Positions 7,038 through 54,709 of a DNA stretch of 64,000 nt are shown here, piece by piece. The DNA is from Acidipropionibacterium acidipropionici (GTDB lineage: Bacteria; Actinomycetota; Actinomycetes; Propionibacteriales; Propionibacteriaceae), in assembly GCF_001441165.1 (NCBI RefSeq), contig NZ_CP013126.1:434001-498000 (forward strand), given 5' to 3'. The position numbers and the translations under genes were made by a program. The notes under the pieces were generated by a model. The model was not told the origin of the DNA, searched no databases, and worked only from the letters and a program-made list of their open reading frames with translations. The first letter of the stretch is position 1, and each line of letters opens with the position of its first letter.

Positions 7038-8261
7038 ATGACACTCGACCAGCTGAACCCCCCCACCCGGCTCCTCATGGGGCCCGGGCCCATCAACGCC
7101 GACCCCCGGGTCGCCCGCGCCACCGCCTCGGCCCTCACCGGCCAGTTCGACCCGTGGATGACGGCGACGATGAACGAGACCATGGGCCTGTACCGGTCGG
7201 TGTTCTCCACCGCCAACGAGCAGACCTTCCCGGTCGACGGCACCTCCCGGGCCGCCATCGAGGCCGCCCTGGTGTCCCTGGTCTCACCCGGGCAGAAAGT
7301 CCTGGTGGCCGTGATGGGCCGCTTCGGGCTCCTGCTGAAGGAGATCGCCGAGAGGGCCGGGGCGCAGGTCGTCACCATCGAACGGCCCTGGGGCACCGTC
7401 TTCACCCTCGACGAGATCGAGGAGGGACTGCGCACCCACCGCCCCGACGTCTTCGCCACCGTCCAGGGGGACACCGCCACCACCATGAACCAGCCTCTGG
7501 AGGGGCTGGGGCAGCTGTGCCACCGCTACGGGGCGCTGTGCTACGTCGACGCCACGGCGTCGGTGGCCGGCAACACCCTGCTGGTCGACGAGTGGGAGCT
7601 CGACGTCGTCTCCGCCGGGCTGCAGAAGTGCCTGGGCGGGCCGTCCGGATCGGCCCCCATCACCATCTCCGAGCGGGCGCGCGAGGTGATCTCCTCGCGG
7701 CGTCACGTGGAGGCCGGGATCACCGAGGGGGCGGAGGGCCCCGGAGAGCGGATCCGCTCCAACTATCTCGACCTGGCGATGCTGATGGACTACTGGGGCC
7801 CCAGGCGCCTCAACCACCACACCGAATCCGGCCCGATGCTCTACGCCGCCCGCGAGTGCGCCCGCATCATCGCCGACGAGGGCATCGCGAACACCGTCGA
7901 GCGGCACCGGCTGCACGGCGCGGCGATGGCCGCCGGGCTGGCGGGCCTGGGGCTGGAGCTCTTCGGCGACCAGGCCCACCGGATGAACAACGTCATCGGG
8001 GTGAGGATCCCCGACGACGTCGGCGGCGATGCGCTGCGCGCCGCCCTGCTGGAGGATTTCGCGATCGAGATCGGCACCTCCTTCGGGCCGCTGGCAGGAG
8101 TGGTCTGGCGGGTCGGGGTGATGGGCTACAACGCCCGCCGCGACGCCGTCCTGACCACCCTGGCCGCTCTGGAGGCCGAACTGCGACGCTTCGGCCACCC
8201 CACCCCGGCCGGCGGCGGCCTCACAGCCGCGATGAGCTACTACCAGGAGCAGGAGTCATGA
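7038..8261 (+). CDS. pucG: (S)-ureidoglycine--glyoxylate aminotransferase (PucG-like)
   Basis: A PLP-dependent class V aminotransferase of 407 residues, related to alanine--glyoxylate transaminases. The Schiff-base lysine is K197 in SAGLQKCLGGPSG; LMGPGPIN and the VDATAS aspartate that holds PLP are also present. In B. subtilis, PucG moves the amino group of ureidoglycine to glyoxylate, giving oxalurate and glycine. Placement between allantoinase and allantoate amidohydrolase supports that role. Some homologues accept pyruvate or oxaloacetate, so the amino acceptor is open. An in-frame GTG at 7017 exists, but ATG 7038 has an AGGAGAG site ahead of it. Its stop overlaps the next ATG (ATGA). Confidence 0.88.
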   Translation: MTLDQLNPPTRLLMGPGPINADPRVARATASALTGQFDPWMTATMNETMGLYRSVFSTANEQTFPVDGTSRAAIEAALVSLVSPGQKVLVAVMGRFGLLLKEIAERAGAQVVTIERPWGTVFTLDEIEEGLRTHRPDVFATVQGDTATTMNQPLEGLGQLCHRYGALCYVDATASVAGNTLLVDEWELDVVSAGLQKCLGGPSGSAPITISERAREVISSRRHVEAGITEGAEGPGERIRSNYLDLAMLMDYWGPRRLNHHTESGPMLYAARECARIIADEGIANTVERHRLHGAAMAAGLAGLGLELFGDQAHRMNNVIGVRIPDDVGGDALRAALLEDFAIEIGTSFGPLAGVVWRVGVMGYNARRDAVLTTLAALEAELRRFGHPTPAGGGLTAAMSYYQEQES

Positions 8262-10673: not shown

Positions 10674-10741
10674 ATGTCGTCAGAGAGTTTTCACTTCGGC
10701 AGCGGTATTCCACTGCCGAGGTCAAAACTCACTGACGACGT
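10674..10741. repeat. palindromic repeat family 2, copy A (68 bp, decayed)
   Basis: The left arm (GTCGTCAGAGAGTTTTCACT onward) matches the copy at 52972-53039 almost base for base, while the right arm has several changes. The length is exactly 68 bp with no spacer at the centre. It lies between convergent genes. Confidence 0.85.
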
Positions 10742-33644: not shown

Positions 33645-33816
33645 TGGAAGTTTCCTTTCGTGGCACGTCGACATGCGCTCAGGGGCACGGCGGGGCTGCG
33701 CCCGACGTGCGTCCTACGTCGGCGTGCGGGCGCAGGTCGAGACTGTAACCTCCTGGTGCCGATCTTCGTAAGTCCGCCCTCAGCGAACACCTTGGCGCAC
33801 TCACCGGCGGAGCGTT

Positions 33817-33874
33817 CACTCCCGACACGCCGTCACGGCGCTCGGCAGTGCCTGGGGACGGCGTGTTGGGAGTG
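33817..33874. repeat. palindromic repeat family 3, copy B
   Basis: Arms CACTCCCGACACGCCGTC / GACGGCGTGTTGGGAGTG, in the same orientation as copies A and C. It lies downstream of the small gene at 33889-34326 and upstream of the MFS gene. Confidence 0.85.
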
Positions 33875-33888
33875 TGTGCTCCCGAAAC

Positions 33889-52897: not shown

Positions 52898-53231
52898 CGG
52901 CCCCCGCCGTCCCCTCCCCCTGTCCCACGACCCGCCCCCCCATCCCCACGTCACCACCGCCCCCCATCCCCACGTCGTCAGAGAGTTTTCACTTCGGCAG
53001 CGGAATTCCGCTGCCGAAGTGAAAACTCTCTGACGACGTCACGTGGACGAGGCCGGGGCAGTGATCCAGAGCATGCGGCACCGAGGTCAGCGAGTGTCCC
53101 GCCGGCCCGGAAGGCCGGATTCCGACGTGGGCGGAACAGTTATCCACAGGCTTCGACGCCGGACGGAAACACTGTCCACAGAGTGCGTCCGGGGTCTGGT
53201 GCACCGCCTCGCCCTGTGGCTCACTCATCTC
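52898..53231. other. gene-free interval with direct repeat, perfect palindrome and a DnaA-box-like site
   Basis: This 334-bp stretch holds two direct repeats (CGCCCCCCCATCCCCACGTC at 52933-52952 and a 19-bp version at 52958-52976) and the 68-bp palindrome at 52972-53039. TTATCCACA at 53140-53148 is a perfect consensus DnaA box, and CTGTCCACA at 53172-53180 matches 7 of 9. The frame of the next gene is open from 53043, but I see no conserved coding before 53232. Confidence 0.6.
52972..53039. repeat. perfect 68-bp palindrome without spacer (family 2, copy B)
   Basis: Every base of the left half (52972-53005) pairs with the right half (53006-53039); the centre is CGGAATTCCG. Copies A (10674-10741) and C (54342-54409) have the same length but are decayed. 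Spacerless palindromes this long can extrude as cruciforms and are normally attacked by SbcCD. Confidence 0.95.
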
Positions 53232-54272
53232 ATGGCAGACGACTCACGACAGGTGCAGAGGATCAGCGACATGCGTCGCCTTCACTTTACCTACGACAAG
53301 ATCAAGAAGGGGCTCCGCGACGGGTCCTTGACCCAGGTCCGTCACGGGGCGGTGGTCGACGGACCGATCCAGCAGACCGCGCGGGCACGTCAGCTGGAAC
53401 TCATCGACGCGACGGTCCCGGTGCTCGCCGGGCCCAGGTGGGCGTTGAGCCACACCTCAGCGGTCGCTCTCCTCGGTCTTCCGATGACCCGCGACGGCGC
53501 CGAATCCGTGTGGATCACCAGAAGTTCGGACGCCAGCACCCAGCACCACCCCCCGCTCATCGTCAGGGCGTGCGAATTCGGCGACGATGAGGTGATCGAC
53601 GTCAACGGCCTCCTGGTCACCACTCCCGAACGGACTGCCATGGACATGGCGCGCCAGTTCGGATTCGTCACCGGCACCATGATCGCCGACGCCGTCCTTC
53701 GGGGAGGAAGCACGCCGAACAAGCTTCTCAGCATCGTCACCCGGGCGCCACGACGTCCGGGCAATGCCATCGCCCGCGACGTCGCGGGTTTCGCCGACCG
53801 ACGCTCAGAGAGCCCTGGCGAGTCGCTGATGCGCGCGGTCCTGGAGCGGGAGAGGTGTGCACCGACCGACCTCCAGATCGACATCTTCGACGAGCACGGG
53901 CGGTTCGTCGCACGGTGCGACTTCGACTGGCTGGAGTACGGGGTCGTCGGGGAGTACGACGGGCCCCAGAAGTACTTCCGGAACCTGAAGCCCGGGCAGA
54001 GCATCTCCGACGCTATCGTCGCCGAGAAGGCTCGGGAGGCTGACATCCGAGACCAAGGCCTGGAGGTCGTTCGGTTCTGTCTGGAAGATCTGAGGAATCC
54101 GAGGGCCGCGGCGGCGAGACTGCGTCGACTGTGCAGACAGCGCGGACTTCTGAAGACACCCTGGACGAACCCAGTGCCCCTGGCCCCGCCGGACGACGGG
54201 CCCTGGCAGCGCGGAGCCCTGCAGATCCCATGGACCGGGATCCCCGAAGCGCCCCCGACCGACAGCCCCTGA
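53232..54272 (+). CDS. AbiEi-like winged-helix protein fused to a PD-(D/E)XK/DUF559-type domain
   Basis: 346 residues. The N-terminal part (about 10-60, MRRLHFTYDKIKKGLRDGSLTQVRHG) resembles the AbiEi antitoxin winged helix. The middle has VTTPERTAMDMAR, common in this family. The C-terminal domain (about 215-300) looks like a Vsr/DUF559 nuclease fold: ARCDFDWLEYGVVGEYDGPQKY gives the D...E-x-DG-x-x-K pattern, and VRFCLEDLRNP follows. No AbiEii toxin is next to it, so it is an orphan, and its function is unknown. ATG 53271 with an AGAGGA site is an alternative start. Confidence 0.7.
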   Translation: MADDSRQVQRISDMRRLHFTYDKIKKGLRDGSLTQVRHGAVVDGPIQQTARARQLELIDATVPVLAGPRWALSHTSAVALLGLPMTRDGAESVWITRSSDASTQHHPPLIVRACEFGDDEVIDVNGLLVTTPERTAMDMARQFGFVTGTMIADAVLRGGSTPNKLLSIVTRAPRRPGNAIARDVAGFADRRSESPGESLMRAVLERERCAPTDLQIDIFDEHGRFVARCDFDWLEYGVVGEYDGPQKYFRNLKPGQSISDAIVAEKAREADIRDQGLEVVRFCLEDLRNPRAAAARLRRLCRQRGLLKTPWTNPVPLAPPDDGPWQRGALQIPWTGIPEAPPTDSP

Positions 54273-54709
54273 CATGCGTCACACCGCGCATCGGGTCGTG
54301 GCGTCCCGACCCCAGGGGAGGTGGCGATGCCTGCGAGGTCGACGTCGGCAGAGAGTTTTCACCCTGGCAGTGGAATACCGCTGCCGGAGTGCAAATTCGC
54401 TGCCCAGGTCGAGTGGGGCGGGAGCAGGGACAGCAGGACGGGGACCGGAAGGGGCAGACCAGCGCCGGACGGCAGTCACACCCCCTTTCCGGTAAGCGCT
54501 ATCCCCTTACCACAAGGCCCTCGAGAACCCCATTTACGCAAGGGGCGATGGGCATATATGCATAACCGGGACCCCCGTGTGAACGATCTCCCGACGGGGT
54601 CCTACTATCTCTCGTAGTTGAGGATCGGGAGCGCACAGCGCCCCGGCCCCACGACTCAGCATTGATCCACAGAGCAGTCGGCACAGCCACTACGAGGGAG
54701 AAGTCAGGC
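54273..54709. promoter_or_regulatory. upstream region of the GltD-like/nifJ operon
   Basis: 437 bp. A family-2 repeat occupies 54342-54409. GGTAAG-N9-CTTACC (54491-54511) is an inverted repeat. GCATATATGC (54552-54561) is a short palindrome in an AT-rich spot that could hold a -10. GGACCCCCGT / ACGGGGTCC (54569-54602) can form a hairpin in the leader. GAGGGAG (54694-54700) is the ribosome-binding site. Confidence 0.4.
54342..54409. repeat. palindromic repeat family 2, copy C (68 bp, decayed)
   Basis: Same 68-bp layout as copy B, with changes in both arms. The block GCAGAGAGTTTTCAC is kept. It follows the AbiEi-like gene, so copies B and C bracket that gene in direct orientation. Confidence 0.75.

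Follow-up and report, generated by a model that had tools for sequence, protein, structure and literature searches.

Why should a perfect palindrome of 68 bp stand directly beside a nuclease-like gene and a DnaA-box-like site? The locus lies in the window, by which we mean the whole 64,000-nucleotide stretch of DNA analysed here (G000:C1:434001-498000, where G000 denotes the genome of the window). The first-pass annotation had framed it as a lone cruciform that chanced to border the gene and the box. Comparison with four congeners (among the congeners are A. jensenii DSM 20535, A. thoenii DSM 20276 and an Acidipropionibacterium MAG) and with more distant relatives replaces that frame with another, in which palindromes, gene and box belong to one recurrent unit. 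Its order is a 68-bp palindrome, DnaA boxes and promoter, a gene for an AbiEi-like protein with a Vsr/EDxHD-like nuclease domain, and a second 68-bp palindrome.

A gene between matched palindromes

The left palindrome of the unit (52972-53039; all palindromes are given without strand) equals its own reverse complement across 68 bases, with two 34-bp arms paired at 34 of 34 positions, a spacer of zero and CGGAATTCCG at the centre, exactly as had been described. As single-stranded DNA it is predicted to fold into one hairpin of -43.2 kcal/mol, compared with -9.6 ± 2.35 kcal/mol for shuffled sequences (z = -14.3). A scan of the entire window with 34-bp arms returned six sites with at least 22 paired positions, the one at 52972 being the only perfect one. 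The two decayed relatives listed previously are also present: a solo palindrome of the same subfamily (10674-10741, equivalent to G000 444674), with 28/34 pairs and lying in a gap between convergent genes, and the right palindrome of the unit (54342-54409), imperfect with 25/34 pairs and identical to the left one at 55 of 68 positions. Searches of Rfam with the palindrome gave no match above the gathering score and only sub-threshold hairpin-like miRNA families. For SbcCD, each of the five genomes gave no more than an SbcD-like match below cut-off (E about 1e-11), which spans model positions 1-89 of 252.

Any such sequence carries the general risk that it arose by chance, or that the assembly mirrored a single arm, as the annotation had warned. 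Here we regard both possibilities as negligible. Perfect 34/34 copies that are independent of this one and different in sequence were found in other species, A. jensenii and A. thoenii among them, which makes an assembly artefact unlikely and leaves the warning unsupported. The copies carry compensatory changes in their arms, and no comparable site, with 28/34 pairs or more, was found in 4 Mb of mononucleotide-shuffled congener sequence (5 x 800 kb).

Over the first 10 arm positions, arm identity is 0.667 at an offset of 19, as against 0.24-0.30 at all other offsets from 8 to 24. Given this sharp 19-bp internal period, the element reads R(10)-S(9)-R(10)-core(10)-R'(10)-S'(9)-R'(10). In the left palindrome the repeat units occupy 52972-52981, 52991-53000, 53011-53020 and 53030-53039, with the core at 53001-53010 and 9-bp spacers separating the repeat units within each arm.

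The 52972 and 54342 copies bracket a gene for a 346-aa protein on the plus strand (53232-54272), so that the AbiEi/nuclease-like gene reported at this border is confirmed. It is the only gene between the palindromes, with no partner gene, and its downstream neighbour beyond the unit is conserved in every congener, none of which has the unit at this spot. The window protein reaches no Pfam or NCBIfam family and has no Y1 (HUH) match. Its AbiEi-type region (residues about 1-190) is recognised by PADLOC (AbiEi, 4.2e-9), Pfam AbiEi_4 is present in 25 of its 39 relatives, and the predicted structure (modelled with nine sequences, mean pLDDT 80) matches the AbiEi antitoxin 6y8q with an E-value of 1.8e-4 and a probability of 1.00. 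The predicted C-terminal domain (residues about 191-305) matches the catalytic domain of the homing endonuclease I-Bth0305I (3r3p; probability 1.00, TM 0.74 by target, Foldseek E 0.096) and also Vsr (1vsr; TM 0.55). Residues E197, D230, E241 and D243 are invariant among the 39 relatives and K247 is nearly so. As modelled, the protein resembles an AbiEi-type DNA-binding fold joined to a Vsr/EDxHD-like nuclease domain, the E-value of the nuclease fold being weak.

The DnaA-box-like site mentioned in the annotation proves to be an exact DnaA-box word, TTATCCACA, at 53140-53148 on the plus strand, and it is kept upstream of homologous genes. A second box, CTGTCCACA (53172-53180, plus strand), follows 32 bp after the first in the same orientation, with one mismatch to the actinobacterial TTGTCCACA. 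The high-affinity DnaA box is TTATCCACA in E. coli and TTGTCCACA in Mycobacterium and Streptomyces (PMC4285127), and the pattern TTNTCCACA covers both. Among 82 gene loci of the family, 26 have this pattern in the 220 bp upstream of the gene and none has it downstream, where a mean of 0.2 is expected from shuffles and 0.7 from its density in 800 kb of a congener; the shorter TCCACAG lies upstream of 44 of the 82 and likewise downstream of none. Box pairs at these loci are usually 28-33 bp apart in the same orientation. Since the palindromes vary from gene to gene while the box stays constant, the boxes are likely to be read by a host factor, most simply DnaA.

Nearly all homologous genes in the congeners also lie between two palindromes of their own type. 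The A. thoenii gene has ACGTTCGTCCTCGAATCTGGCGTTCGTCCTGGAA and its mirror on one side and, on the other, a second perfect copy that differs at mirrored positions; the flanking palindromes of the genes in G003 and G001, two further examples, are of the types TCGAATGCAGGGAAACTTGGCGAATGCAGTGGAA and ACGCAGCGCC, respectively. Profile searches, both family-wide and phylum-wide, extend the association to other genera of the Propionibacteriaceae and to other families of the Actinomycetota. When the best palindrome on each flank was taken, 53 of the 82 gene loci, which are interrelated and do not represent independent events, were paired at 18 or more of the 31 outer positions in each flank and showed a left-right identity of at least 40/68. 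With shuffled flanks the number was 0/82 (top identity 38/68), and when left and right flanks were drawn from different loci, 40 identities were reached in 2 of 400 draws. The other 29 loci include intact genes without detectable palindromes, and some that visibly have matched repeats. An intact homologous copy at G000 546570 has no palindromes.

In pairwise comparisons the identity of the repeat R follows that of the protein (Spearman 0.50, with none of 500 permutations as high), the corresponding value for the spacer S being 0.16, and the correlation for R is similar for all three protein domains. Further repeat arrangements were seen in A. jensenii. On contig C35 (stretch L094, about 7540-8030), R half-sites with a 31-bp period run forward on the left and reverse on the right toward a central palindrome, a layout like that of an iteron array around a symmetric centre, and on contig C11 a run with a 19-bp period ends in a palindrome.

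Solo palindromes and their distribution

A covariance model built on 14 copies located 27 palindrome loci in the 3.65-Mb genome of the window and also picked up copies in each of the four congeners. With few exceptions the copies measure 68 bp; arm pairing is high to position 34 and then drops to about 0.4 or below, which gives a fixed length and a sharp end. Across the 14 copies, changes on both sides were seen at 15 of 32 pairs, compared with 7.1 in shuffles. Related copies of very different sequence are still 68-bp palindromes, and the shape is therefore kept while the sequence changes. The proposal that the 52972 copy is actively maintained gains support from these two-sided changes and from the fact that several species have perfect copies that differ in sequence. 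That it is recent, as was also proposed, is not established, most other copies of its subfamily in the genome being just 54-64/68 identical to the gene-flanking pair.

By the calls of a rough gene caller, 26 of the 27 copies are intergenic, with neighbouring genes that are convergent in 8 cases, tandem in 13 and divergent in 5. Judged by sequence, the solo palindromes resemble the gene-flanking pair of the same genome. The biggest solo set in G000 is of the type of the window palindrome, all seven solos in G003 match the type of its own gene, and most solos in A. jensenii do the same. In another genus (g17), G083, which has a cognate gene, holds about 20 copies, and three congeners of it hold none. 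A second G000 subfamily comprises about eleven solos that have no cognate gene in that genome. At G000:C1:201713-202515 a related gene survives as a remnant, broken up by frame changes and a stop, and no palindromes were detected in its vicinity; it is possibly the lost partner of this orphan subfamily.

The positions of the copies are uneven, with 25 of the 27 found by the model lying within 0.15-2.07 Mb and two in the remainder of the 3.65-Mb chromosome. The two palindromes at G000 850777 and 850838 belong to different subfamilies and have a few bases in common, and a cluster is formed by those at 1086043, 1086137 and 1086528; both arrangements suggest insertion at or beside existing palindromes. 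Another family of 68-bp palindromes, GCTATGCGCC...GTTGGCCCTCC, is present in multiple copies in G001 (3041682, 3392917, 227703 and 289448). A different, spaced inverted repeat of the GACGGCGTGTTGGGAG type recurs at 33809-33882 of the window and at G001 127177 and 186539.

Presence and absence were compared between species, with one genome per species. At the window locus, the gene and both palindromes are missing between the same two neighbour genes in all four congeners, and in A. thoenii the equivalent gap holds a solo palindrome, near-perfect or perfect, that matches in type the pair around the gene of A. thoenii itself. Three G000 palindromes, at 444674 (window 10674), 517179 and 1028971, are missing in the sister species G001, and a fourth, at 3369153, is present in both. 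Units across the genus lie in different neighbourhoods, one pair excepted. No target-site duplication was detected, flank identity over 3-12 bp at five offsets being the same as in the shuffled control. Neither a junction nor an empty site could be placed to the base in the G000/G001 and G002/G004 comparisons, because the intergenic DNA is too diverged.

Explanations for the unit

The unit might represent a classic homing endonuclease gene, in which a target is cut, break repair inserts the gene and the palindromes are duplicated target sites. The predicted C-terminal fold is nearest to I-Bth0305I and Vsr, and I-Bth0305I binds as a dimer to a target of nearly 60 bp (PMC3943268). This origin is nevertheless unlikely: insertion normally destroys the target, yet the palindrome, here the presumed target, stands intact on both sides, no interrupted intron, intein or conserved host gene was seen, and the solos are multicopy and occupy non-homologous sites. 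It is also distinctly improbable that the palindromes are operators or bidirectional terminators and the gene an AbiEi-like autoregulator whose regulon includes the other sites. The promoters of AbiEi antitoxins do contain inverted repeats to which the antitoxin binds (PMC7319586), and the intergenic location of nearly all copies would suit such a role, but the copies occur in all three gene orientations and are not followed by a T tract, sites are present or absent between sister species, the palindrome also lies downstream of the gene with a sequence that varies from gene to gene, and the protein has a conserved nuclease-like domain. An intrinsic terminator at the palindrome was rejected, the T tract being missing and no terminator being found there.

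The copies are short, dispersed, intergenic and multicopy, with defined ends, as would be expected of miniature inverted-repeat elements moved by an unrelated transposase, the AbiEi-like gene being passenger cargo. We give this little credence. Target-site duplications were not found, the same gene family lies between palindromes in many genera, the sequence of the repeat tracks that of the AbiEi-like protein, and the sole Y1 transposase of G000 is missing from the four congeners. That transposase gene, IS200-like and found only in G000 (609308-609622), is unassociated with the palindromes. With a single Y1 protein in G000 and no such protein in the four congeners, a RAYT or IS200 element was rejected as the driver. 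A plasmid or phage origin was likewise rejected, with no DNA match and just weak, distant protein matches.

The unit is probably an analogue of REP/RAYT systems that is based on an unrelated nuclease, with the palindrome as the cognate element of the gene that it brackets; we infer that the protein binds this element, cuts it and spreads it. The solo palindromes are then best explained as non-autonomous copies of the unit's element. In the mechanism that we envisage, the AbiEi-type region would read the 10-bp repeat, and the four repeats of a palindrome, a direct pair at a distance of 19 bp and its mirror image, would seat a dimer or higher oligomer on the symmetric 68-bp site. The nuclease domain would nick or cut at the palindrome, possibly once it has extruded as a hairpin or where the replication fork exposes hairpins. 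As the hairpin is repaired or replicated, the palindrome, or at times the gene unit as a whole, would be copied to intergenic sites, and the arms would stay identical. The DnaA boxes may couple expression of the gene to replication.

If this reading is correct, it would provide a large and essentially unannotated protein family with a function, and would show the REP/RAYT way of life, with one gene and many cognate palindromes, arising twice, the second time on an unrelated nuclease. It would make the long-standing puzzle of how long perfect palindromes persist in bacterial genomes open to experiment. Natural protein-DNA specificity pairs would also be at hand, in the form of dozens of proteins that each have a particular 10-bp repeat.

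Comparison with known systems

The N-terminal and middle regions of the protein match AbiEi models and 6y8q, as in the AbiE type IV toxin-antitoxin system. Unlike AbiE, the unit has no adjacent AbiEii (DUF1814) toxin gene between its palindromes, and a nuclease-like domain follows the AbiEi region. With the EDxHD homing endonucleases (I-Bth0305I) and Vsr the protein appears to share the fold of the catalytic domain, as predicted by modelling, and a very long target bound by a dimer is on record for I-Bth0305I. It differs from them in its N-terminal AbiEi region, in its location outside a group I intron or phage and in its two intact flanking palindromes.

IS200/IS605 elements are small units with hairpin ends that generate no target-site duplication. 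The present units are similarly small, with hairpin or palindromic ends and no target-site duplication, but their protein lacks an HUH/Y1 domain.

REP/RAYT systems have a gene between palindromes, many extragenic cognate solos, co-variation of gene and palindrome, and genome-specific types (PMC3116915, PMC8266576). All of these features, together with clusters of tandem repeats in some genomes, are common to REPs or REPINs with TnpAREP (RAYT) and to the unit described here. However, RAYTs, relatives of IS200/IS605, are single-strand nucleases of the HUH type, whereas the protein here is AbiEi plus Vsr/EDxHD-like. REPs are 20-50 nt long, usually with a GTAG tag, while the present palindromes have 68 bp, an internal period of 19 bp and, in aligned copies, no constant GTAG foot. 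RAYT genes show no evidence of mobility, and the palindrome units here are found at different loci.

A search of the open-access literature on DUF559, AbiEi or Vsr with palindromes, and on propionibacterial palindromic repeats, judged by titles and abstracts, returned no description of such a palindrome family. Each known system that we compared lacks at least one defining feature or stayed unconfirmed. We tentatively put forward a possible new class of replication-coupled selfish element in Actinomycetota, in which a DnaA-regulated AbiEi-EDxHD nuclease would copy 68-bp palindromes via hairpin or break-repair intermediates, re-perfect the arms each time and diversify the recognition repeat along with the protein. 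Some may prefer the more cautious wording that the unit is a second, unrelated version of the REP/RAYT lifestyle.
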